Positions 14,198-56,171 of a stretch of DNA of 64,000 nt are shown here, piece after piece (the stretch's first letter is position 1; every line of letters begins with the position of its first letter). The notes under the pieces were generated by a model. That model did no database searches. It saw nothing but the letters and a program-made list of their open reading frames with translations, and was not told the DNA's origin. The position numbers and the translations under genes were made by a program. The stretch spans positions 1,922,001-1,986,000 of the forward strand of contig NZ_SHKW01000001.1 of assembly GCF_004217555.1 (NCBI RefSeq), read 5' to 3'. The stretch comes from Edaphobacter modestus (GTDB lineage: Bacteria > Acidobacteriota > Terriglobia > Terriglobales > Acidobacteriaceae).

Positions 14198-14229
14198 ACG
14201 GCACAGGTGCTTTCATACTCGCCGGGTGC

Positions 14230-14312
14230 CCCACATCTCGATTTTGAGATGTGGGTTCATTCGAGCTTCAACTCGAACCCGCCTCGCTCAAGGGCACGGC
14301 TTCAGCCGTGCC
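14230..14312. repeat. composite extragenic element with three hairpins
   Basis: Three stems follow one another: CCCACATCTC / GAGATGTGGG (14230-14255, loop GATTTT), TTCGAG / CTCGAA (14260-14277), and GGCACGGC / GCCGTGCC (14293-14312, loop TTCA). The last has the GGCTTCAGCC core seen again near 16000. It fills most of the gap between two convergent exported-protein genes and may end both transcripts. Confidence 0.75.
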
Positions 14313-14375
14313 GCAATCACCCCGCCAGAAACGCGGCTTCGTCCGCTGAGGTGCTCTTTCCTCCCCTTCGTGAAC

Positions 14376-15007: not shown

Positions 15008-15772
15008 TTACTTCAGCGGATACAGCTTCATATCCCGAAAGTAAAGTTCCGCCCCTTCGGACTGAAACAGAATCTTCCCGCTCGTCGGCGACGGATTCAT
15101 CCCCTCATTCACCAGCTTTCCATTCACATACTGCTTCACGTCGTTCCCCTGGATCACGAGCTCCACGACATTCCACTCCCCATGAGGCTTCTCCACCTCT
15201 CCCACTGGATCGCGAAAACCCACGACATTCTCCGACGGCCCCTTGCCGAAGCGATCGATCTTCATCGCCTTCCCCGCCGGCCCTTCCACCCGAACGCCGT
15301 CCTTGCCGGTCAGCGCCGCCCCATCGGTCATCCAGAAGTCTCCCGTGCCGCCCTCCATAATCTGGAACTCCAGCGACCGCGGCCACACCTTCTGCTCTCC
15401 CTGGATGTCATAGAGAATCCCGCTATCCCGCGCCTTCCCCTCGCGCGACCCATACGTCCCCTCTCCCCACTTGAACTCCGCCCGCAGATAGTAGTTCTGA
15501 TACTCCTTCTTCGTGATGATGTAGCCCATGTCTTTGCCCGAGACGTGAATCACTCCGTTCTCCACCTGGAAGACATGATCCGGATCGTCGTTCAGTCCCT
15601 TGCTCTTCAGAAACACATCGAAGTTGTTCAGGGTCTTCCCATCGAACAGAACCACCGCGGCCTTATGTGCCGGTATCGCAGGCGTCTGCGCCAGCGCCTC
15701 ATTCTTCATGCCCGAACACGCAACCAACGCAAATACCACAAGTGTCGAAACATCTCTTCCCTTCAAAGCCAT
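15008..15772 (-). CDS. DUF1080 (3-keto-disaccharide hydrolase) family lipoprotein
   Basis: Starting at MALKGRDVSTLVVFALVACSG, the product has a short signal sequence ending in lipobox LVAC, so it is probably a lipoprotein of about 254 residues. The mature part is one DUF1080 domain with a concanavalin-like fold: LFDGKTLNNFDVFL near the start, YYLRAEFKWG, ARDSGILYDI, WPRSLEFQIMEGGTGDFW, EWNVVELVIQGNDVKQYVNGKLVNEG and GKILFQSEGAELYFRDMKLYPL at the end. Related proteins cleave 3-keto-glycosides or act in polysaccharide breakdown. The frame extends ten codons further to an ATG at 15802; I prefer the inner start because it gives a normal signal peptide and has AGGGGG just upstream. Confidence 0.85.
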   Translation of the reverse strand: MALKGRDVSTLVVFALVACSGMKNEALAQTPAIPAHKAAVVLFDGKTLNNFDVFLKSKGLNDDPDHVFQVENGVIHVSGKDMGYIITKKEYQNYYLRAEFKWGEGTYGSREGKARDSGILYDIQGEQKVWPRSLEFQIMEGGTGDFWMTDGAALTGKDGVRVEGPAGKAMKIDRFGKGPSENVVGFRDPVGEVEKPHGEWNVVELVIQGNDVKQYVNGKLVNEGMNPSPTSGKILFQSEGAELYFRDMKLYPLK

Positions 15773-15999
15773 GGACCCCCTCAGATCGTCGATAAGACTC
15801 ATCGCCCAGCCGGATCAGACCGGAACACGATCATCATAGCCTTTTGTGACCAGCGAGATACGTTTCGTTTCCCTCTGTAAATGATCGGGCCTGATGTTCT
15901 GGGGCCTCGAAGGATGATAGGCTCATGACGTTTCATTTTGCCGTTGCCTCTGGGTACGCAAGCCTCCAGGCTCGGCCATCCCTCTAGACTCCTAAAAGC

Positions 16000-16015
16000 A
16001 GGGGCTTCAGCCTCT
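16000..16015. repeat. short GGGGCTTCAGCC hairpin element
   Basis: AGGGGC, loop TTCA, GCCTCT forms a 6-bp stem with one G-T pair, the same core as the third hairpin at 14293. It lies 24 bases before the first DGPF gene. Confidence 0.45.
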
Positions 16016-16038
16016 GGGATATGCATCGGAGACTCACC

Positions 16039-16494
16039 ATGCGATTCATGATCCTCCGCAGATCCGACGCCAACATGGAAGCCGGAGCCCTCACCGACAA
16101 GGCCCTCCTCGCAGCCGTCGGCCGCTACTACCAGGACATGCGCGACGCCGGCGTCCTCCTCGCCGGCGAATGGCTCCGCCCCACGGCTAAGTCCGCACGC
16201 ATCGTCGCCTCTCAGGGCAGGCAGACCGTCGTCGATGGCCCGTTCACCGAGCTCAAAGAACTCATCGCCGGCTTCATCCTCATCGAGGTCCCCTCCCTCG
16301 AAGAGGCCATCCGCTGGGCCCGCCGATGCCCCACACTCACCGGCAGCTTCGACGCCCAGGCCGAGGTTCGCCAGGTCGTCGAAGCCTCCGACTTCCCCGC
16401 CGACTACGCCCAGGAACTGACCCTCCACGCCTCAAAGACCATGGCCGCCGACGCCGAAGAACTCCTCCGGACACAAACCGCAGCCATTCAATAG
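16039..16494 (+). CDS. DGPF/YCII-domain protein (paralog 1)
   Basis: A 151-residue cytoplasmic protein starting MRFMILRRSDANMEAG. It has the hallmark VVDGPFTELKELIAGFILIEV (residues about 64-85) and the later WARRCPTLTG and AEVRQVVEASDFPAD segments, which identify the DGPF/YCII family, a dimeric ferredoxin-like fold of unknown function. I place the start at 16039, where GGAGA lies six bases upstream. The three YCII genes at 17152, 17552 and 18022 are paralogs. This copy lies before the ECF-type promoter at 16613 and is therefore probably transcribed separately from them. Confidence 0.88.
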   Translation: MRFMILRRSDANMEAGALTDKALLAAVGRYYQDMRDAGVLLAGEWLRPTAKSARIVASQGRQTVVDGPFTELKELIAGFILIEVPSLEEAIRWARRCPTLTGSFDAQAEVRQVVEASDFPADYAQELTLHASKTMAADAEELLRTQTAAIQ

Positions 16495-16612
16495 GTTTCC
16501 GCTACTAGGTCCGTCTCCACATGGAGCGGCGGCAGAGGAAATCCCTCCTCGTCACGGGGTTCGCACGCCTGAAGTCTCTCCGCGAAAAATAATTTAAAAA
16601 TTTCAACGTTTG

Positions 16613-16639
16613 TGTCGATTCTGTTCGTTCCCGTTCGAC
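16613..16639 (+). promoter_or_regulatory. candidate ECF42-type promoter of the VOC-YCII-DoxX cluster
   Basis: TGTCGA at 16613-16618 is followed after exactly 17 bases by CGAC at 16636-16639, 53 bases before the VOC gene. As I recall the published work on ECF42 sigma factors, targets carry TGTCGA at -35 and CGA/TC at -10 and encode DGPF proteins. The region just upstream is strikingly AT-rich (AAATAATTTAAAAATTT at about 16586-16602), like an UP element. A sigma factor of this type is encoded at 52676. Confidence 0.65.
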
Positions 16640-16692
16640 GTACATGTAGAGCGGCAGAAAAACCGCTCCCAAAAACACGAAGGAGCAGACAC

Positions 16693-17106
16693 ATGCAGAT
16701 CCAGCCGTATCTCTTCTATAAAGGCGATTGCGAAGAAGCCTTCAAATTCTACGAGCGCGTCCTCAATGGCAAGATTGACGCCCTGCTCCCCCACGCCGGA
16801 ACTCCCGCTGAACAGAACACCCCGCCCGAGTGGCGCGACAAGATCATGCACGCCCGTCTTACGGTCGGCGAGGCTGTCCTGATGGCCTCCGATGCTCCTC
16901 CTGAGCACTACAGCGCTCCCGGAGGATTCTCCGTCAGTCTTCAGATTGATGAAGTCTCCAAAGCTGAGCGCGTCTACAACGAGCTCTCCGCCGGGGGCAA
17001 GATTACGCTGGCCTTGCAGCAGACCTTCTGGGCAACACGATTCGGAATGTTTACGGATCGGTTTGGCATTCCCTGGATGATCAACTGCAACCAGCCCACG
17101 GCCTGA
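16693..17106 (+). CDS. VOC-superfamily protein, PhnB-like
   Basis: A 137-residue protein (MQIQPYLFYKGDCEEAFKFYERVLNGKID) with the glyoxalase/bleomycin-resistance fold. Typical PhnB-type features are YLFYKGDCEEAFKFYERVLNG, WRDKIMHARLTVGEAVLMASD, GGFSVSLQIDE, and FWATRFGMFTDRFGIPWMINC near the end. PhnB-like members are dimeric; most have no known reaction. AGGAG seven bases upstream fixes the start at 16693. It is the first gene after the candidate ECF promoter, followed by three YCII genes and a DoxX gene with gaps of 10 to 80 bases. VOC and YCII proteins commonly accompany ECF-type sigma factors, which supports membership in one regulon. Confidence 0.85.
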   Translation: MQIQPYLFYKGDCEEAFKFYERVLNGKIDALLPHAGTPAEQNTPPEWRDKIMHARLTVGEAVLMASDAPPEHYSAPGGFSVSLQIDEVSKAERVYNELSAGGKITLALQQTFWATRFGMFTDRFGIPWMINCNQPTA

Positions 17107-17151
17107 ACCAGCCCTGAAATACAGAGCGGAACAACGAAGGAGTTCTTTCGA

Positions 17152-17541
17152 ATGCGATTTCTCATGCTTTATCGTCCCTCCGATGCAGCCAGCGTAGAAG
17201 CCGGTGTTCCTCCCACGCCCGAGATGATGGCCCGGATGGGCACCCTCATCCAAAAGAAGATCGAAGAAGGCAAATTGCTCTCGACCGAAGGCTGCGCTGC
17301 CACCAGCAAGGGAGCGAAGGTGCAGTTGTCCAAGGGAAAGCTAAGCGTAACGGACGGCCCTTTCTCCGAAGCGAAAGAGCTGATCGCGGGCTTTGCTCTC
17401 TTCCGTGTCAACTCGAAGCAAGAGGCCATCGCGGAGGCGCGTGAGTTCCTCGATGTCGCCGGGGATGGGGAGGTGGAGATTCGCCTCGTCCACGATTCAG
17501 ACAACTGCATTGAATCCGTCAAACTGAGCCACCAGGCCTAA
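17152..17541 (+). CDS. DGPF/YCII-domain protein (paralog 2)
   Basis: A 129-residue protein, MRFLMLYRPSDAASVEAGVPPTPEMMARMGTL..., with the YCII core TDGPFSEAKELIAGFALFRVNSKQEAIAEAREFLD. It is the most divergent and shortest of the four paralogs: the WxKRCP motif of the others is replaced by AREFLDVAGDGEVEIRLVHD. AAGGAG lies nine bases before the ATG. Position between the VOC gene and paralog 3, ten bases upstream of the latter, indicates cotranscription. Function unknown; the DGPF motif lies in the dimer cleft of the family and may bind a small ligand. Confidence 0.88.
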   Translation: MRFLMLYRPSDAASVEAGVPPTPEMMARMGTLIQKKIEEGKLLSTEGCAATSKGAKVQLSKGKLSVTDGPFSEAKELIAGFALFRVNSKQEAIAEAREFLDVAGDGEVEIRLVHDSDNCIESVKLSHQA

Positions 17542-17551
17542 GGAGCAACCC

Positions 17552-17974
17552 ATGCGATTCATGATGTTGATGATTCCCAAAGGCTACGAGAGCGCCCAGC
17601 CAGGAGAGATGCCGAGCGCAGAAGCCGTAGCGGCGATGATGAAGTACAACGAATCCCTCAAAAAGGCCGGCGTGCTGCTCGCGCTCGACGGCCTTCATCC
17701 GCCTTCCATGGGGGCACGCGTAAGCTTTCCTGACGGAAGGCCACACGTCACCGACGGTCCTTTTGCAGAGGTCAAAGAGGTTCTGGGCGGCTACTGGATG
17801 ATCCAGGTTCGATCGCGCGAAGAGGCGATCGAGTGGGCCAAACGCTGCCCCGCCTCTGCAAACGAAGTCATTGAAATTCGCCAGGTCCAGGAGCTCGCCG
17901 ATTTTCCAGCCGACGTCCAAAAAGCCGCAGCGGGCTTCACAGAAATGCAGCCGCACAGCAAAAAAGCATCCTGA
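17552..17974 (+). CDS. DGPF/YCII-domain protein (paralog 3)
   Basis: A 140-residue paralog, MRFMMLMIPKGYESAQPGEMPSAEAVAAMMKYNES..., with AGVLLALDGLHPPSMGARVSF, the hallmark VTDGPFAEVKEVLGGYWMIQV and EAIEWAKRCPASANEVIEIRQVQELADFPADV. This is the best match of the four to the standard YCII-related protein of about 140 residues. AGGAG lies six bases upstream of the ATG. It starts ten bases after paralog 2 and is followed by paralog 4 after 47 bases. Confidence 0.9.
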   Translation: MRFMMLMIPKGYESAQPGEMPSAEAVAAMMKYNESLKKAGVLLALDGLHPPSMGARVSFPDGRPHVTDGPFAEVKEVLGGYWMIQVRSREEAIEWAKRCPASANEVIEIRQVQELADFPADVQKAAAGFTEMQPHSKKAS

Positions 17975-18021
17975 CCCACGACAAACCAGTACCACTTATT
18001 CGAGAAAGGAAACTAAATCCA

Positions 18022-18450
18022 ATGCGATTCATGATCATCATCAAGGCCACTCCCAGCTCCGAGGATGGAACACCACCGGACGAAAAACTGCTCACGGAGA
18101 TGGGCAAATTCAACGAGGAACTCGTCGCCGCGGGCATCATGCTCGCGGGCGAGGGGCTCCAGGCCAGCTCAAAAGGTGCGCGCGTTCGCTTCAGTGGCGA
18201 CAAACGCACCGTAGTCGACGGTCCCTTCTCCGAGACGAAAGAACTGATCGCCGGCTTCTGGATATGGCAGTGCAAGTCGAAGGAAGAGGCCATTGAATGG
18301 GTAAAGCGCTGCCCCAATCCCTTCAATGAAGAGAGCGAGATCGAGATCCGCCAGGTCTTCGAACTCGAGGACTTCGGCCCCGAGCTTCCCGCCGAGGTAC
18401 GCGAGAGCGAAGAACGTCTCCGTGCCGAGCTCGCCTCCCGCCAGAAGTAA
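18022..18450 (+). CDS. DGPF/YCII-domain protein (paralog 4)
   Basis: A 142-residue paralog, MRFMIIIKATPSSEDGTPPDEKLLTEMGKFNEEL..., with AGIMLAGEGLQASSKGARVRF, VVDGPFSETKELIAGFWIWQC and EAIEWVKRCPNPFNEESEIEIRQVFELEDFG. An acidic/basic helix extends the C-terminus (EVRESEERLRAELASRQK). AAAGGA lies about ten bases upstream. It is the last YCII gene before the DoxX-like membrane protein, 80 bases away. Four related copies in under 2.5 kb suggest duplication with divergence. Confidence 0.9.
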   Translation: MRFMIIIKATPSSEDGTPPDEKLLTEMGKFNEELVAAGIMLAGEGLQASSKGARVRFSGDKRTVVDGPFSETKELIAGFWIWQCKSKEEAIEWVKRCPNPFNEESEIEIRQVFELEDFGPELPAEVRESEERLRAELASRQK

Positions 18451-18530
18451 GCTTGATCCGCCCACGTCAGCCGCCGCGGCGCTGTCCAACGCCGCGGCCT
18501 GCCAAATCGAATACAGAGAGAAGATCGAAC

Positions 18531-19340
18531 ATGACAGTCGACATTCAAGCCGCCCCATCCAAGACCCGGCTCTACACCGGCTACACCTTTACTACGCTCG
18601 CCGTCCTGTTCCTCCTGCTGGACGCGGGGATGAAGTTCACCACCGACCCGCACGTTGTCCAGGCGCAGGCTCAACTCGGCTTCCCCATGCGGCTCCTGCC
18701 GGGCATCGGGGTCCTCGAGCTAGTCTCGATCGGGTTATACGTCATTCCAGCAACATCGGTGCTCGGCGCATTGATGCTCACGGGCCATCTCGGCGGCGCC
18801 ATCGCGCTGCACCTACGCGTCGACAACCCACTCTTCACGCACACCCTCTTCCCCATCTACATCGCTCTCTTTATCTGGGGAGGCATCTGGCTGCGCGACC
18901 GGAGCCTTCGCGATCTCTTTCCTGTGACCCACCGCTCAACCGCAGTTATACCCAACCCATCCAAAAAGCTACTTCGGACTGGCTATGTGCTCACAGCGAT
19001 CTCGGCTCTCTTCATTCTCTTCACCGCTGCGATGAAGTTCATCTATACGCCCCCGGCAGGCGCTCCACCACCAACCTTCCCTCTTCATCACATTCATCAT
19101 CTTGCCTTCCTCGAGATTGCCTGCACCGCGTTGTATCTGTTTCCAGCCACATCGTTCCTCGGGGCCGTTTTGATGACCGGCTATCTTGGCGGGGCCACAG
19201 CCATCAACCTTCGTGGTGGTGAATCCATTGGCGCAAGCCTGATTCCCGCCCTCGTCGGAGTTGTCGTCTGGGCCGGTCTCTGGCTTCGCGAACTGCGTAT
19301 CCGCCAACTCTTCCCGATTCGCTCTGCCTCGTCTCGCTAA
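18531..19340 (+). CDS. tandem DoxX-like membrane protein
   Basis: A 269-residue membrane protein made of two homologous halves. Half one (about 14-130) has TGYTFTTLAVLFLLLDAGMKF, GVLELVSIGLYVIPATSVLGALMLTGHLGGAIALHLR and IWGGIWLRDRSLRDLFP. Half two (about 150-265) repeats the plan: TGYVLTAISALFILFTAAMKF, ACTALYLFPATSFLGAVLMTGYLGGATAINLR and WAGLWLRELRIRQLFP. Each half has the four membrane segments of a DoxX-family unit. DoxX-like proteins are often produced with ECF-sigma regulons. The start MTVDIQ at 18531 is preceded by GAGAGAAG. Its stop shares four bases with the convergent amidohydrolase stop. Confidence 0.85.
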   Translation: MTVDIQAAPSKTRLYTGYTFTTLAVLFLLLDAGMKFTTDPHVVQAQAQLGFPMRLLPGIGVLELVSIGLYVIPATSVLGALMLTGHLGGAIALHLRVDNPLFTHTLFPIYIALFIWGGIWLRDRSLRDLFPVTHRSTAVIPNPSKKLLRTGYVLTAISALFILFTAAMKFIYTPPAGAPPPTFPLHHIHHLAFLEIACTALYLFPATSFLGAVLMTGYLGGATAINLRGGESIGASLIPALVGVVVWAGLWLRELRIRQLFPIRSASSR

Positions 19341-20398
19341 CGGAGATGAGGCATCAGCTTGAGAGCATTCTCGCGGTAGACCTTGCGCAGAACGTCATCC
19401 GGTAGATAGAGCCCGTAGATGTTCCACCGTCCCTGCCGCGATGCATGCGATGGATATTCGAAGTATTCGTCGGCAGTCTCCAGAAAGCGGAAGTAAAGCC
19501 GATACATCGCGTCATCGGGCAGCAGGTCGGTGCCGAACAAGATGCGGTCCGCGTACTTCAGGAAGAACTCGCGCGCGCTGTAGGGCTGCCGTCCCAGCTC
19601 CGGGGTCCGCGCGCTGATGTCGACCTGCAGATTCGGCAATGCGTCGAGCTGCTGCGCCAAAAAGCGCAGATCCTCCGAAGACTCCGCGCAGTGCGCTCCA
19701 ACGAAGGTCACCTCCGGATGGCGAGCGATCACGCGGTTACGCTGCTCCAGCAGCTCGCGCTTCGACACGGGCGAATCGTGGAAGCTCCAGTCCGGATGCG
19801 CCGCCAGCTCTTCGTACCGCTCATTGCACTCATCGATCGGCTGGAAGAAAGCCGTTGGATCGGCGGTGTGAAACATGACCGGAAGCCCGAGCTCTCCACA
19901 TGCCGCGAAGATCGGCGCGAAACGCTCGTCATCAATCCGCAGCAGCGAGCCATTGGCATCCCGCAGGGTCAGGCCGAGATCCTTCCAGAACTTGATGCCG
20001 CAGGCCCCATGATCCACGAGCCGCTTCAGCCGATCGATCGTGACTTCGGCGAAGTCGCTGCGATCCACGCCATTCCAGTCCATCCAGCCGATCGAGGAGA
20101 ACCGCCCCGGGGCCGCGCGATGGAAGCGATCCATCGTCTCCAACGCCGCCTGCCCTACCTGCATCGTGATGTTCACCACGTGTTCCACGCCGCAGCGATC
20201 CATGATGGCAAGCACGTCCCGCGGCTCGGTGGAGTCCAGGTGATTGTGATAATCGATCGCCGGATACTTTGGCTTCAAGACAGCATGCTCGTCCAACGCC
20301 AGCGAGGATCGCGGGCGAAAGTCGCTCAGCCGCAGATCGACTTCAGCCGTGGCCGTCACCATATCGACAAACTTATCGTTCAGATCCGTCTTCTTCAT
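19337..20398 (-). CDS. amidohydrolase-family protein (metal-dependent hydrolase)
   Basis: From MKKTDLNDKFVDMVTATAEV the protein has 353 residues. It shows the amidohydrolase-2 barrel: DYHNHLDS near residue 50 (two His ligands), VVNITMQVGQAALETMDRFHRAAPGRF, CGIKFWKDLGL, VMFHTADPTAFF, VTFVGAHCAESSEDL and FGTDLLPDDAMYR, which supply the His, His and Asp of the metal site. Relatives decarboxylate or hydrolyse carboxylic-acid rings or lactones. The frame is open to 20566, but the upstream part reads as non-protein; the ribosome site for 20398 is weak (GGGGAAG 13 bases away). It is divergent from the DeoR regulator, a typical regulator-target arrangement. Confidence 0.8.
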   Translation of the reverse strand: MKKTDLNDKFVDMVTATAEVDLRLSDFRPRSSLALDEHAVLKPKYPAIDYHNHLDSTEPRDVLAIMDRCGVEHVVNITMQVGQAALETMDRFHRAAPGRFSSIGWMDWNGVDRSDFAEVTIDRLKRLVDHGACGIKFWKDLGLTLRDANGSLLRIDDERFAPIFAACGELGLPVMFHTADPTAFFQPIDECNERYEELAAHPDWSFHDSPVSKRELLEQRNRVIARHPEVTFVGAHCAESSEDLRFLAQQLDALPNLQVDISARTPELGRQPYSAREFFLKYADRILFGTDLLPDDAMYRLYFRFLETADEYFEYPSHASRQGRWNIYGLYLPDDVLRKVYRENALKLMPHLR

Positions 20399-50063: not shown

Positions 50064-52553
50064 CTACAGCTTCGCGGTCCTCAACCGCAAAGCATTCGCA
50101 ATCACCGAGACCGAGCTGAAGCTCATCGCCGCAGCCGCCACCATCGGGCTCAGCAGCCACCCGACCAGCGGATACAGCACGCCTGCCGCCAGCGGCACAC
50201 CGGCAGCGTTATAGACGAACGCGAAGAACAGGTTCTGCCGGATATTCTTCATCGTCTTCTCACTCAGTCGCCTGGCCCGCAGCAATCCACGAAGATCTCC
50301 GCTTACCAGCGTGATGCCACCCGCTGCCATCGCTACGTCCGTGCCAGTCCCCATAGCAATCCCTACCTGAGCCGCGGCCAGCGCCGGCGCATCGTTCACC
50401 CCATCGCCAGCCATCGCGACAATCTTTCCTTCCTTCTGCAGCCGGCGCACCACCTCGGCCTTCCCTTCCGGCGAAACCTCCGCCTCAAACTCGATTCCCA
50501 ATTTTTCGGCTACTGCGGCAGCCGTCGTGCGATTGTCCCCGGTCACCATCATCACCCTCAGCCCGCTCTTCCTCAGTGCATCGATTACCTCCGGCGACGA
50601 GCCCTTCACCGGATCGGCCACAGCAATCAACCCCGCGGCCTTCCCATCGATAGCGACCAGCATCACCGTCCGTCCGTCGCGTCGCAGCGCCTCAGCCCTC
50701 TGCGCCATCGCACTCGCGTCGACCCTCTCCTCCCGCATCAAAGCCACATTCCCCACAGCGACACACCAACCATCGATCACGCCCGTCACCCCCTTCCCCG
50801 TCACGGACACAAACTCCTTCACCGCGCCCAACGCAACTCCACGCCCCTCCGCGCCGGCAACAATCGCCGCCGCCAGCGGATGCTCACTCGCCCGCTCCAG
50901 GCTCGCCACAGCCCGCAGCAGATCGCCTTCGCTCACGCCTTCCGCCGCAATCACCTCCGTTACGCGCGGCTTCCCTTCCGTCAGGGTTCCTGTCTTATCC
51001 ACCACCAGCGTGTCGACCTTCTCCAGCGTCTCCAGCGCCTCCGCATTCCGCACCAGGACGCCCTCATGCGCGCCGCGTCCCGTCGCCACCATGATCGACA
51101 TCGGCGTCGCCAGCCCCAACGCACACGGACAAGCAATCAGCAGCACCGACACCGCAATCACCAGCGCATGCGCCAGCCTCGGCTCCGGACCCCACACCGC
51201 CCACACAATCGCCGCAATCGCCGCCGCCGCCAGCACCGCCGGTACAAAGTACGATGCCACCTGATCCGCCAGCCGCTGAATCGGCGCCCTGGACCGCTGC
51301 GCCTCGCTCACCATCTTCACGATCTGCGCCAGCAGCGTATCCGCGCCCACACGCTCCGCCCGCATCACCAGCGTCCCGGTCCCGTTGATGGTCCCGCCAA
51401 CGACCTGCTCGCCCTTCGTCTTCTCCACCGGAACCGGCTCACCCGTCACCATCGACTCATCCACCGCGCTCCGGCCGTCCTCCACCACGCCGTCCACCGG
51501 AACCTTCTCGCCCGGCCGCACGCGCAGCCTGTCGCCCACCACAATCTCGCTCAGCGGAACATCTCTCTCCGTCCCATCTGCCGCGATCCTCCGCGCCGTC
51601 TTGGGAGCCAGCCCCAGCAGCGCCCGTATCGCCTCGCCCGTCTTGTCCCGAGCCCGAAGCTCCAGCACCTGCCCCAGCAGCACCAGCACCGTGATTACCG
51701 CCGCCGCTTCAAAGTACAGCCCCACCTCGCCGCCGTGCCCGCGAAACGAGCCCGGAAAGACTCCCGGCGCGACCACAGCCGCCACGCTGTACAGATAGGC
51801 GGCACCCGTTCCCATCGCAATCAGCGTGAACATATTCAGGCTGCGGTGCACCACCGACGCCCAGCCCCGCTCAAAGAACGGCCACCCACACCACAGCACT
51901 ACCGGGCTCGCCAACGCCATCTGCGCCCACCCCATCCAGGTGCTCATCACGAGCCCCATAAACGGATGCCCCGGCCACATCTCCATCACCATCACCGCCA
52001 GCAGCGGGAGCGTCAGCGCCACTCCCACCCAGAACCGCAGCGTCATGCTCTTCAGCTCAGGATTCTCCTGGTCCGCCATCACCTCTCGCGGCTCCAGCGC
52101 CATCCCGCAGATCGGGCAGCTTCCCGGCCCATCCTTCATAATCTCCGGATGCATCGGGCACGTGTACTCCACCCGAGCCATCGCAGGCGCCACCGCCTCC
52201 AGCGCCATTCCACACTTTGGACACGCCGCCATCTTGTCCGACATCACCTCCGGGTGCATCGGACACGTATATCCTCCACTCCCATGCGCCACAGGCTTCG
52301 TCACCGCTGGAAGACCAGTTCCACCGCAGCAGCTCCCCGCAGCCTTAGCCGGACTCATCCCCCCAATCGCAACCAATCCCTCCGCTTCCCCCTCCAGCCG
52401 CGAGCCGTCATACCTCCCCGGCTCGGCCTCAAACTTCTTCCTGCACCCCTCGCAGCAGAAATACCAGCCCTTTCCCGCGTGTTCGCTCCTCCACTTCGCG
52501 GTCTCCACCTTCACCTGCATCCCACAGACCGGGTCCTTTACCATCTCGCTCAT
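50064..52553 (-). CDS. copper/silver-type P1B ATPase with YHS and two HMBD modules
   Basis: An 829-residue metal pump. N-terminal modules: YHS domain at about 5-48 ([21 protein letters not shown]), a GSCCGG linker, then two heavy-metal-binding HMBD modules [22 protein letters not shown] (95-117) and [22 protein letters not shown] (130-152). ATPase core: TGE at 370-372, [12 protein letters not shown] with CPC at 475-477, DKTGT at 519-523, SEHPLA at 557-561, [23 protein letters not shown] plus HMBD modules indicate a Cu+/Ag+ exporter (P1B-1, SilP/CopA-like). No classic HMA domain is present. The gene is monocistronic; no CueR- or CsoR-like gene is adjacent. Confidence 0.94.
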
Positions 52554-52675
52554 CGCTGAATCCCTCCTTCACCCAACGCAGACGGACAACCCGCTCTTTC
52601 ATTACACACCGACCTCAAAATCTTTCCCCTCACCCGGCTTGCCACACCTCGATCCAAGGTGGTGTCATCATTCCG

Positions 52676-53971
52676 ATGCCTTCCGAATCCCAGCGCACCG
52701 ACGCCATCCAGCGTTCCATCGACGCCGTCTGGCGTATCGAGTCGGCAAAGCTCATCGCCGCCCTCACCCGCATCGTCCGCGACGTCGGCCTGGCCGAAGA
52801 CCTCGCCCAGGACGCCCTCGTCGCCGCGCTCGAGCGCTGGCCCCAGACCGGCATCCCCGACAATCCCGCCGCCTGGCTCATGGCTGCCGCCAAAAACCGC
52901 GCCATCGACCTCCTCCGCCGCTCAAAGCTCCTCGAGCGCAAGCACCAGCAGCTCGGCTACGAGCTCGAAGCCACGCGCCAGCTCACCCCCGACGACATCA
53001 ACGCCGCCATCGACTCCCCCGTCGCCGACGACCTCCTCCGTCTCATCTTCATCTCCTGCCACCCCATCCTCTCGCCCGAATCCCGCGTCGCCCTCACCCT
53101 TCGTCTCCTCGGTGGCCTCACCACCGACGAGATCGCCCGCGCCTTCCTCCTCTCCGAGCCCACCGTCGCCCAGCGCATCGTCCGCGCCAAACGCACCCTC
53201 AGCGACGCGAAGATCCCCTTCGAGCTCCCTCGCGGAGTCGAGTTCACCTCCCGCCTCGCTTCGGTCCTCCAGGTCCTCTACCTCATCTTCAACGAAGGCT
53301 ACTCCGCCACCGCCGGCGACGACTGGACCCGTCCCGCCCTCTGCGAAGACGCCCTCCGCCTCGGCCGCATCCTCAGCGAACTTGTTCCCGATGAATCCGA
53401 GGTCCACGGACTCGCCGCACTGATGGAGATCCAGGCCTCCCGCCTCCACGCCCGCATCGGCCCCTCCGGCGAGCCCATCCTTCTCCTCGATCAGGATCGC
53501 GCCCGCTGGGACCAGATCCTCATCGGACGCGGTCTCGCCGCCCTCGAGCACGCCCAGCAGACCTCCGCCCGCCTCTCCTCTCCCATCGGCTCCTACACCC
53601 TGCAGGCAGCCATCGCCGCCTGCCACGCCCGCGCCGTCACCGCCGAGGCGACCGACTGGCATCGCATTGCTTCCCTCTACGCTCAGCTCGTCCGGCTCAC
53701 CCCTTCTCCTATCGTCGAGCTCAACCGCGCTGTCGCTGTCTCCATGGCCTCAGGTCCTGCCGTCGCTCTCCCTCTGATCGATGCCCTCACCGATGAGCCA
53801 GCCCTCAAGAGCTACCATCTGCTCCCCAGCGTGCGCGGCGATCTGCTCCTCAAGCTCGGACGTCATCAGGAGGCCCGCACCGAATTCGAGCGCGCCGCCA
53901 CCCTCACCCGCAACGAGCGCGAGCGAACCCTCCTCCTCAACCGAGCCAGGGCTGCAGGTCAGGTCTCCTGA
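52676..53971 (+). CDS. ECF42-type RNA polymerase sigma factor with long C-terminal extension
   Basis: A 431-residue sigma factor. Region 2 is at about 15-85 (VWRIESAKLIAALTRIVRDVGLAEDLAQDALVAALERWP, NPAAWLMAAAKNRAIDLLRR) and region 4 at about 118-176 (LLRLIFISCHPILSPESRVALTLRLLGGLTTDEIARAFLLSEPTVAQRIVRAKRTL). The 250-residue extension has the conserved ECF42 blocks: VLYLIFNEGYSA, CEDALRLGRIL, GLAALMEIQASRLHAR, ARWDQ, GSYTLQAAIAACHARA, DWHRIASLYAQL and PIVELNRAVAV, predicted TPR-like helices. ECF42 sigmas have no anti-sigma and associate with DGPF proteins. Here the DGPF cluster is 33 kb away. A hairpin at 53986 ends the message. Confidence 0.92.
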   Translation: MPSESQRTDAIQRSIDAVWRIESAKLIAALTRIVRDVGLAEDLAQDALVAALERWPQTGIPDNPAAWLMAAAKNRAIDLLRRSKLLERKHQQLGYELEATRQLTPDDINAAIDSPVADDLLRLIFISCHPILSPESRVALTLRLLGGLTTDEIARAFLLSEPTVAQRIVRAKRTLSDAKIPFELPRGVEFTSRLASVLQVLYLIFNEGYSATAGDDWTRPALCEDALRLGRILSELVPDESEVHGLAALMEIQASRLHARIGPSGEPILLLDQDRARWDQILIGRGLAALEHAQQTSARLSSPIGSYTLQAAIAACHARAVTAEATDWHRIASLYAQLVRLTPSPIVELNRAVAVSMASGPAVALPLIDALTDEPALKSYHLLPSVRGDLLLKLGRHQEARTEFERAATLTRNERERTLLLNRARAAGQVS

Positions 53972-54029: not shown

Positions 54030-56171
54030 CTATCGGTTCACACCTTCCATAGCGCCCAGACCCAACAGATACTGGTCGATACTGATGAACACAGCCCTGT
54101 TGTTGTCGATCGGATAACTCACGAAATCGTTTGCCGTGGTGAAAGCCACAGCGTCGAAGCCCGCCAGTGACAGGATTCCGCTGGAGTTGTCCAGACTCCC
54201 CGTCAGACTCACATTCGGCGTCGGTGTGCCCGAGTCGTTATAGTCGGTAAATCCGCTGTAGCTCCCGGACGTGACCGTGACTGCGCCTCCCGCACTCCAT
54301 GGCGGGTTGTCGGTGTCAGTGACCAGGAATCCCTGGTTCGTAAGAGCGTACGTCCCCGCCAAAACCGGTGATGAAACCGTCTGCCGATAACCCGGACCCG
54401 CACTGATCTCTACCAGATCCGCTCCCATCACCAGCGCATTTCCGTTGCCGTCCAGATAGATTTCGAATGCATACGGACCGCCCAGAGGAGCGTATTGAGT
54501 CGTTACATTGCTCAACGTCACCCGGCCCGTAGCATCAACCGTGTAACTCCCGCCGGTAATCGTGTCCTCTCCTTGCTTCACAAGATCATTGATCGACATC
54601 GGGCCTGACACCGTACCATTGCTAAAGGCGAAGGAACCCGCAAGATCGAGCACTCCATTCGAATCCACGCCGCTACTTCCATAGACATAGGTAGTGCCCG
54701 TAATACTGTTCGAAGTGAACGTACCCGCATTGGAGCCCTGTCCCAAAGCCATGCCTGCAAGGTTGTAATTCAAGCCATCTGCCTGGCTTTCGATCAGCTG
54801 GATCTGGTTCGTTCCGACGACATAGCCGGTAAGGAGGATCGCCGCAACACCGGAAGCGGTGCTCGGCGTAAGCGTGAAAGTCATCCTGCCATAGGAGTCC
54901 GGAGTATTCGTCGAACCCGACGCAAAGCTCTGCGCTGCTTTAAGAGTCCCGCCAAAGTTGAAGTCGAAGACGCTGTTGCTGGCAGACAACGTAGTCCCGC
55001 TGATATTCAGCACGCCACCAATTGCAGTTGCAATGGTGGCAACAGGATTCTTCGTAGTATCGAAGCCCACGCCGGAGATAAGAAATGCATATCCCCCTGC
55101 AGGAGCTGCGACGCTTGTTTGCAGATCGATCGATCCCGTGCCGGTGGCATACCCGTCATATTCAGAAACCAGCGTCCGGGAGTTCGAAACCTTAGTACCT
55201 TGCAACGTAATCGCGCCATTGCCATTGGGGCCAATGTTCGTATTACTCGTCGCAAGCACGATTTGGAGATTGGTTCCGGAGCCGCTTGAAATACTGCTTC
55301 CAGCTTGATTGATTGCATTGCTATATCCGGTCACAGAGTCAGAGAAATCCTGCTCCCCGCCCGTGATCACACCATTCGCAATCACAAACGCCCCGGCAAA
55401 GAAGCAAGGTCCGTTCGCGTTCTGTCCAGCAACGTGATAGACATAAGTGCCGTCGTTGAGAATGGCGCTCGAAGTGGCGGCTATGATGATCGTCGCAGAC
55501 GCCGACTTCGTAGTGTCGGTTATTGAGGTGGCCGTGACTGTCACGGTGTTTCCCGTCGGAACTGCCGAGGGCGCCGTGTAGACGACTGAACTTCCGCTCG
55601 CAGTCTGAGCTGAACCGAACGACCCGCATGCAGAGGTGCCGCAGCTCGCCGTCCACTTCACACCACCGTTTGCGCTGTCATTGCTCACGATGGCCATGAT
55701 GCTCGTCTTCGCGTTCACTGTAAGCGATGACGGTGGCAGGGGGGTAATCAAAACCATCACCGGAGGAGGCGCAGGCGGGGTAATCGTAATCGTCGCCGAC
55801 GCGGTCTTCGTGCTGTCTGTTACCGAGGTCGCCGTCACGGTCACAGTATTCGAAGTTGGAACCGCAGCAGGCGCAGTGTAGGTCGTGCTCGCCCCGCTCG
55901 CCGTGGATGCAGCGCTGAACGAGCCACATGCGGAGCTACCGCAGGTTACCGTCCATCTGACGCCAGCGTTGGCACTGTCATTGCTCACGTTTGCTGTCAG
56001 GGCAGTCTGCGCATTCACTGTCAGAGAAGCAGGCGGTTGCGCGCTCAGCGCGACCGAGACCGCAGCAGCAGGAGGAGGAGGAGGAGTCGGATCGGACGAA
56101 CCTCCACACCCAATCAGTCCAAAGACGAGAGTCGCCGCAGCCACGAAAAGAACATTCTGTGTGCTCTTCAT
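54030..56171 (-). CDS. exported Ig-like-repeat lipoprotein
   Basis: A 713-residue protein with signal peptide and lipobox (TLVFGLIGCGG, Cys at 22), a Pro linker, then two tandem Ig-like domains of about 95 residues each (about 38-131 and 137-230): SLTVNAQTALTANVSNDSANAGVRWTVTCGSSACGSFSA... and SLTVNAKTSIMAIVSNDSANGGVKWTASCGTSACGSFGS..., each with a close CGSSACGSF Cys pair and YTAP. The following ~480 residues are Gly/Ser/Thr/Asn-rich with a repeated pattern such as GTYVYHVAGQNANGPCFFAGAFVIANGVITGGEQDFSD, GTTYVYGSSGVDSNGVLDLAGSFAFSNGTVSGPMSIND. It resembles acidobacterial cell-surface proteins of unknown role. It overlaps the upstream gene by four bases. Confidence 0.85.
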   Translation of the reverse strand: MKSTQNVLFVAAATLVFGLIGCGGSSDPTPPPPPAAAVSVALSAQPPASLTVNAQTALTANVSNDSANAGVRWTVTCGSSACGSFSAASTASGASTTYTAPAAVPTSNTVTVTATSVTDSTKTASATITITPPAPPPVMVLITPLPPSSLTVNAKTSIMAIVSNDSANGGVKWTASCGTSACGSFGSAQTASGSSVVYTAPSAVPTGNTVTVTATSITDTTKSASATIIIAATSSAILNDGTYVYHVAGQNANGPCFFAGAFVIANGVITGGEQDFSDSVTGYSNAINQAGSSISSGSGTNLQIVLATSNTNIGPNGNGAITLQGTKVSNSRTLVSEYDGYATGTGSIDLQTSVAAPAGGYAFLISGVGFDTTKNPVATIATAIGGVLNISGTTLSASNSVFDFNFGGTLKAAQSFASGSTNTPDSYGRMTFTLTPSTASGVAAILLTGYVVGTNQIQLIESQADGLNYNLAGMALGQGSNAGTFTSNSITGTTYVYGSSGVDSNGVLDLAGSFAFSNGTVSGPMSINDLVKQGEDTITGGSYTVDATGRVTLSNVTTQYAPLGGPYAFEIYLDGNGNALVMGADLVEISAGPGYRQTVSSPVLAGTYALTNQGFLVTDTDNPPWSAGGAVTVTSGSYSGFTDYNDSGTPTPNVSLTGSLDNSSGILSLAGFDAVAFTTANDFVSYPIDNNRAVFISIDQYLLGLGAMEGVNR

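Follow-up and report, generated by a model that had tools for sequence, protein, structure and literature searches.

A predicted ECF42-type promoter and a candidate leader hairpin ahead of a VOC–YCII–DoxX operon in Edaphobacter modestus

Is the TGTCGA-N17-CGAC site ahead of a run of VOC, YCII/DGPF and DoxX genes in the acidobacterium Edaphobacter modestus more than a chance match, and which sigma factor would read it? The genes lie in a 64,000-nucleotide stretch (hereafter the window; positions 1,922,001 to 1,986,000 of contig NZ_SHKW01000001.1, assembly GCF_004217555.1), and an initial annotation made from the letters alone had taken the site for a promoter of the extracytoplasmic function (ECF) sigma group ECF42. 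Our comparison supports that assignment through boxes that are invariant in six orthologous loci, through the genome's sole sigma factor with a DUF6596 domain, and through a matrix score. We consider it highly probable from these sequence comparisons that the operon is the main, perhaps the single, target of the one ECF42-type sigma factor in this genome. The regulatory unit is a variant of the known ECF42–YCII module.

On the + strand of the window, TGTCGA at 16613-16618 is followed by a 17-base spacer and CGAC at 16636-16639, which conforms to the promoter form TGTCGR, 17-base spacer, CGWC. The CGAC is separated by 53 bases from the VOC start codon at 16693. A check of the sequence returned the same coordinates and distance as the initial annotation had given, and the AT-rich UP-like stretch it described is also present. 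We take the site to be a predicted ECF42 promoter, with a predicted start at ~16648 that derives from the printed sequences of published promoters. The predicted regulatory features are as follows.

16585..16604, + strand: A/T-rich UP-like tract upstream of the -35 box; the 20 bases immediately preceding that box are 80% A/T
16613..16618, + strand: -35 element TGTCGA (TGTCGAT), with TGTCGAT invariant in 6/6 orthologous loci
16634..16639, + strand: -10 element TTCGAC (the initially annotated CGAC is 16636-16639), with TTCGACG invariant in 6/6 orthologous loci
52676..53971, + strand: ECF42-type sigma factor gene with a DUF6596 C-terminal extension (Pfam Sigma70_r2, Sigma70_r4_2 and DUF6596)

The product of 52676-53971 has the architecture of an ECF42 sigma factor, with regions 2 and 4 and a long C-terminal extension, in which the TPR_2 match is weak and below cut-off. 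DUF6596, presumably the mark of the ECF42 extension, is matched once in the genome (7,445,115 bases in 8 contigs, with a contamination estimate of 6.38%), by this gene inside the same window. YCII is matched four times by Pfam profile search, each time within the cluster described here.

Six orthologous loci were compared: the window, a second locus from the same genus (L086), Edaphobacter aggregans (L006), Acidobacteriaceae KBS 146 (L007), AMP-1 (L059) and TAA 166 (L013). In their aligned upstream regions TGTCGAT and TTCGACG are invariant and the spacer is variable. The loci of AMP-1 and L086 run YCII, promoter, VOC, YCII, YCII, YCII, DoxX; the next gene, in the same orientation, is that of the sigma factor. 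In E. aggregans the sigma gene is on the same strand ~0.9 kb downstream, with an opposite-strand VOC gene intervening. The window's sigma factor shares 79.5% (AMP-1) and 82% (genome G034) identity with the proteins beside the operon, and with that of E. aggregans 85% over 285 residues and 63% over 119. The E. aggregans sigma open reading frame (L006 8729-10258) has 509 residues compared with 431 in the window, the extra stretch falling in the C-terminal extension.

The initial annotation had proposed a genome-wide scan for the motif, and in that scan the core by itself is at chance level, while its position and extended context are beyond it. The loose core TGTCGA-N15..19-CGWC occurs four times in the window against 2.2 expected, and 352 times in the genome against 211 in a reversed control (175 and 177 vs 99 and 112). 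The N17 form occurs at 36 sites against 40 in the reversed control; the excess of the loose form therefore stems from other spacings, and the core motif alone was ruled out as evidence. We then relied on a matrix of 57 positions. Its training set came from 140 related loci, with the window excluded, where 93 sites lie near seed genes; the 76 non-redundant ones were used. The window site scores 50.3 bits, compared with a training median of 40.5, and the other 35 N17 sites (scored from 34 fetched stretches, only exact-core N17 sites being scored genome-wide) reach at most 10.6, leaving a gap of ~40 bits. The next-best matrix site inside the window scores 10.1. Because all 36 sites have the same core, the gap is due to the extended context. 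Judged by the matrix, the six aligned loci and the cluster heads described next, the position and extended context of the site are not a product of chance.

The 140 related loci comprise 80 chosen by similarity to YCII gene 3 (with record titles) and 60 taken from family genomes by DUF6596. They contain 197 cluster heads, and the motif was sought in the 250 bases upstream of each; counts of heads must be interpreted with caution because loci chosen for relatedness are not independent events. The motif precedes 81/145 YCII heads, 4/20 VOC heads and 1/2 DoxX heads, and 0/197 in the reversed control. Spacing peaks at 17 (87 sites), with ten sites at 16; for a further 15 sites the apparent spacing of 20 probably comes from a CGTCGTC read one step too far and not from a second spacing class. 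The -10 variants are CGAC (31 sites) and CGTC (55 sites). A run of AAAA lies in the 25 bases preceding the -35 box at 51/93 sites, compared with 3/93 at -60 to -36. The same loci hold seven symmetric sites, TGTCGA-N15-TCGACA, with an exact core on both strands (L006 4819 and 8398, L010 6832, L011 5465, L014 5465, L040 11052, L138 9357). Their use as two-way promoters is not supported: around the four of the seven whose open reading frames were listed (L006 8398, L010, L011 and L138), there is no consistent divergent gene pair.

The association of the sigma factor with DGPF proteins extends across the family. Among 150 family genomes, a DGPF-type match (alignment A1, E up to 1e-8) occurs in 74/75 with DUF6596 and in 14/75 without it (Fisher p 8.6e-27, uncorrected for relatedness). 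In the phylum, the strict pattern TGTCGATT-N13-TTCGACG is found in 17/297 genomes, with 0 among the rows listed for the reversed control. The 17 include the window itself, G034 and G336, the last with a site identical to that of AMP-1. Among the other 14 sites, nine have YCII matches downstream and seven of those nine also have DoxX; for L191 and L192, both among these seven, the DoxX match begins ~700 bases on, and an intervening gene is possible. Ten of the 14 sites, including all nine with downstream matches, come from one genus, so these represent one or few evolutionary events. Predicted DoxX genes thus also accompany YCII behind the strict ECF42 pattern in a genus of another acidobacterial family (L186, L189-L193, L195), and by gene content DoxX is a recurrent partner of YCII/VOC operons in Acidobacteria.

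We propose that RNA polymerase carrying the sigma factor encoded at 52676-53971 would bind TGTCGAT and TTCGAC at 16613-16639, assisted by the A-tract just upstream of the -35 box. The VOC protein, three YCII/DGPF proteins and the tandem DoxX protein would be transcribed as one message, starting near 16648 and opening with a hairpin (16649-16668) that is most likely a stabiliser of the message at its 5' end. The C-terminal extension of the sigma factor may govern its activity, possibly in partnership with YCII proteins; that the YCII partner has a part in ECF42 control is a published proposal (PMC8999054; papers are cited here by PubMed Central number from portions of their text). Comparison shows conservation of both boxes, of the A-tract, of the sigma ortholog and of most of the gene order. 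We infer the specificity of the sigma factor, the start near 16648, co-transcription and control through the extension. ECF42 is a widespread sigma group, and a genome with apparently one such sigma factor, one strong promoter and one operon would be a minimal case in which to find its signal.

The genes of the operon, and one YCII/DGPF gene ahead of its promoter, are predicted as follows.

16039..16494, + strand: YCII/DGPF gene 1, upstream of the promoter (Pfam YCII 7.7e-18)
16693..17106, + strand: VOC gene (PhnB/YjdN-like), first past the promoter (Pfam Glyoxalase, 3-dmu-9_3-mt; 1u6l E 2e-42)
17152..17541, + strand: YCII/DGPF gene 2 (Pfam YCII 9.3e-09)
17552..17974, + strand: YCII/DGPF gene 3 (Pfam YCII 1.2e-24)
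18022..18450, + strand: YCII/DGPF gene 4 (Pfam YCII 4.6e-20)
18531..19340, + strand: membrane protein gene with two DoxX_2 stretches, last in the operon (Pfam DoxX_2 6.5e-29)

Pfam agrees with the initial annotation on the VOC protein, the three YCII/DGPF paralogs and the tandem DoxX protein. That annotation was right about the genes downstream of the promoter and had overlooked both YCII gene 1 and the sigma gene. All four YCII proteins score above the Pfam cut-off, and D66, G67, P68 and F69 are invariant among them. YCII gene 1 has no ECF42 motif of its own, with no matrix score above 5 in 15701-16060, and each of the five other orthologous loci has a match to it ahead of the promoter. YCII gene 2 has no match in TAA 166. 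No terminator-like site was detected on the + strand in 15780-19400.

From the protein families we guess that the operon handles reactive, possibly quinone-like, compounds, and the joining of DoxX to YCII and VOC would point at membrane-linked redox chemistry. The ring-cleavage dioxygenases that detoxify quinones are of VOC type. A more specific proposal gives the operon the task of detoxifying quinones or hydroquinones and makes its YCII proteins TftG-like enzymes. It draws on quinone detoxification by ring-cleavage dioxygenases in Bacillus and Staphylococcus (PMC6798810) and on the YCII family member TftG, a dehydrochlorinase (PMC7641849). However, TftG requires a His-Asp dyad (PMC7641849), whereas the four YCII paralogs, compared without a TftG alignment, share no invariant histidine, which leaves TftG-like chemistry conceivable but unsupported for them. 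The YCII profile found PA1349 (1s7i) as its only solved relative, and the best structures for the VOC protein are labelled hypothetical or PhnB, 1u6l being the best. We consider this specific proposal unlikely and retain the broader guess.

How much of this arrangement has precedent depends on the part considered. Pseudomonas supplies the best solved counterparts, PA1349 for the YCII profile and 1u6l, which we take to be PA1353, for the VOC protein, and their genes presumably lie beside an ECF sigma gene; we know of no tandem DoxX in the PA1349/1u6l/ECF-10 system. A study of ECF42 in Streptomyces venezuelae reportedly has DGPF genes as targets and gives promoter details. Caulobacter SigF and Haemophilus RpoE2 presumably belong to a different ECF group from ECF42. 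DoxX and an ECF sigma factor appear in the same paper for each of these two (PMC3511200 and PMC7907618). P. putida ECF-10 is an ECF42 member, and a TPR-rich C-terminal extension and a YCII neighbour are features of the ECF42 group (PMC8999054), shared by the S. venezuelae ECF42 sigma factors (Sven_0747 and others; PMC8999054).

There is a close likeness to Sinorhizobium meliloti RpoE10, an ECF42 sigma factor with TGTCGG-N17-CGTC promoters and a YCII neighbour; its overexpression raised glyoxalase-like genes (PMC6180224). The -10 element there is CGTC, in contrast to CGAC in the window. The YCII gene just before the RpoE10 gene has a similar motif overlapping its transcription start and did not respond to RpoE10 (PMC6180224). 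The word DoxX has 0 occurrences in the text of that paper, and, judging by the sequence printed there, the length of the SMc01149 leader would not seem to allow a hairpin (PMC6180224). The initial annotation had called the combined operon "poorly described", which goes too far for glyoxalase-like ECF42 targets beside YCII, as these are published, and appears to hold for DoxX: no description of it as a recurrent ECF42 operon member was found in the open-access literature searched.

The predicted transcript opens with a further candidate element.

16649..16668, + strand: hairpin at the predicted transcript 5' end, GAGCGG, 8-base loop, CCGCTC (from the fold against shuffles)

The fold of 16648-16710, which includes the first 18 coding bases, has z -3.94 against 200 shuffles, and the window leader alone has z -2.3. 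Across the related loci, 97 leaders of at least 38 bases gave 63 non-redundant leaders, window included, in which we sought a helix of at least five pairs and a score of 8 (G-C 2, A-T 1, one G-T 0.5) starting 8-12 bases (from 0) past the -10 box. It was found in 31/63 leaders, compared with 11.2 in shuffles (standard deviation 3.1, maximum 19 in 200 runs), a comparison that is optimistic because the offsets 8-12 were picked after viewing the leaders. Two leader subsets each exceeded their shuffles (22/47 vs 9.4; 8/15 vs 1.7), and the mean leader energy was -11.04 against -8.48 in shuffles (standard deviation 0.28). Non-redundant controls from the same loci gave mean z of -0.20 for 53 heads without the motif and -0.33 for 92 internal junctions, compared with -1.14 for the 63 motif leaders. 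The case for a hairpin is built on these shuffles, its position and the controls. In an alignment by MAFFT of 16 long leaders picked by eye among the named loci, in which the 3' arms look misaligned, RNAalifold predicted no pairs and no column covariation emerged. In Rfam, window 16500-16800 matched no family up to E 5, and 12 related loci matched only a tRNA at gathering score.

The 20 bases of this inverted repeat might instead be a DNA operator for a repressor. An inverted repeat at a transcription start is in the usual operator position, as with MhqR at -6 to +12 (PMC6798810). However, the 31 leaders with a helix have 27 different 5' arms and loops of 4 to 44 bases, which is ill-suited to a dimer reading a fixed DNA site, and we regard an operator as improbable. 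The varied arms and loops suit an RNA structure better than a protein-binding site. Stem-loops at the 5' end are known to stabilise messages, and the stabilising role proposed for the hairpin builds on this. We see about an even chance that messages from ECF42 promoters carry a 5'-end hairpin, kept as structure and not as sequence, in Acidobacteria and Proteobacteria at least; promoter and message-stabilising (or ligand-sensing) leader would then form one cassette, of which this operon, its sigma gene escaped from its own feedback loop, would be one case. In the open-access literature searched, no account was found of messages from ECF42 promoters with a hairpin at their predicted 5' end. Such a conserved 5'-terminal hairpin, if true, would be an unrecognised control layer in a large regulon.

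Several observations weigh against the assignment of operon, promoter and hairpin to one ECF42 circuit. Sigma gene and operon are not linked in the window, where ~33 kb separate them and the sigma gene is without an ECF42 promoter. As noted above, the N17 core is not enriched in the genome. The matrix training set includes orthologs of the window promoter, although the window itself was left out, and weaker ECF42 targets with imperfect cores or other spacings, outside the scored set, could lie elsewhere in the genome. In the related loci the exact motif is absent from 64/145 YCII heads and 16/20 VOC heads and precedes 0/30 heads that begin with a sigma gene, and nothing downstream of 5/14 of the newly found phylum sites matches a seed. 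The hairpin test fails in 32/63 leaders, and the L086 ortholog has a mismatch in the stem. The non-response of the Sinorhizobium YCII gene to RpoE10 is a further such point (PMC6180224). Transcription of the operon chiefly from another promoter, by a housekeeping sigma factor or by read-through from YCII gene 1, with the ECF42 site minor or an inactive relic, would suit the distant sigma gene, around whose start (400 bases, 52301-52700) no matrix score exceeds 5, and the similar separation in KBS 146 and TAA 166; it is nonetheless very improbable, as the boxes are intact and score above the training median, KBS 146 and TAA 166 keep both boxes although their sigma genes are separate, and a simple consensus scan detected no sigma-70-like site on the + strand in 15780-19400.

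We therefore return to the operon as the probable main target of the ECF42-type sigma factor, and to the position of the sigma gene. The YCII/DGPF neighbourhood of the sigma gene is 33 kb away in the window and near for its orthologs in E. aggregans, AMP-1 and L086. Both flanks of these three loci match the window (its region at 10.4-13.1 kb or 12.7-15.9 kb on the upstream side, and its region at 57.3 kb 3' of the sigma gene), from which it follows that the difference in the window is the ~33 kb that part the sigma gene from DoxX. KBS 146 (~151 kb) and TAA 166 (~105 kb) likewise have it apart from the operon, provided the contig numbers refer to the same contigs. Where it lies directly behind DoxX on the same strand, as in AMP-1 and L086, positive feedback would result; in the window, with the sigma gene distant and without an ECF42 promoter, this feedback appears to have been lost. 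Circuits with and without positive feedback could be compared between relatives that have the sigma gene directly behind the operon and relatives that have it apart. The leader hairpin and the sigma gene set apart from its operon merit further work.

Some minor observations concern the surroundings of the operon and the sigma gene. Two separate places in L006 match parts of window 14218-14364, one at 94% over 97 bases and the other at 77% over 88, which may mark a small dispersed repeat. At E 0.001 Pfam gave no match to an open reading frame of 713 residues at 54030-56171 (- strand), which has repeated Thr/Ser-rich stretches. A P-type ATPase gene with YHS and HMBD domains (50064-52553, - strand) is divergent from the sigma gene (+ strand), and DNA matching it precedes the separate sigma gene in both KBS 146 (L180) and TAA 166 (L181).

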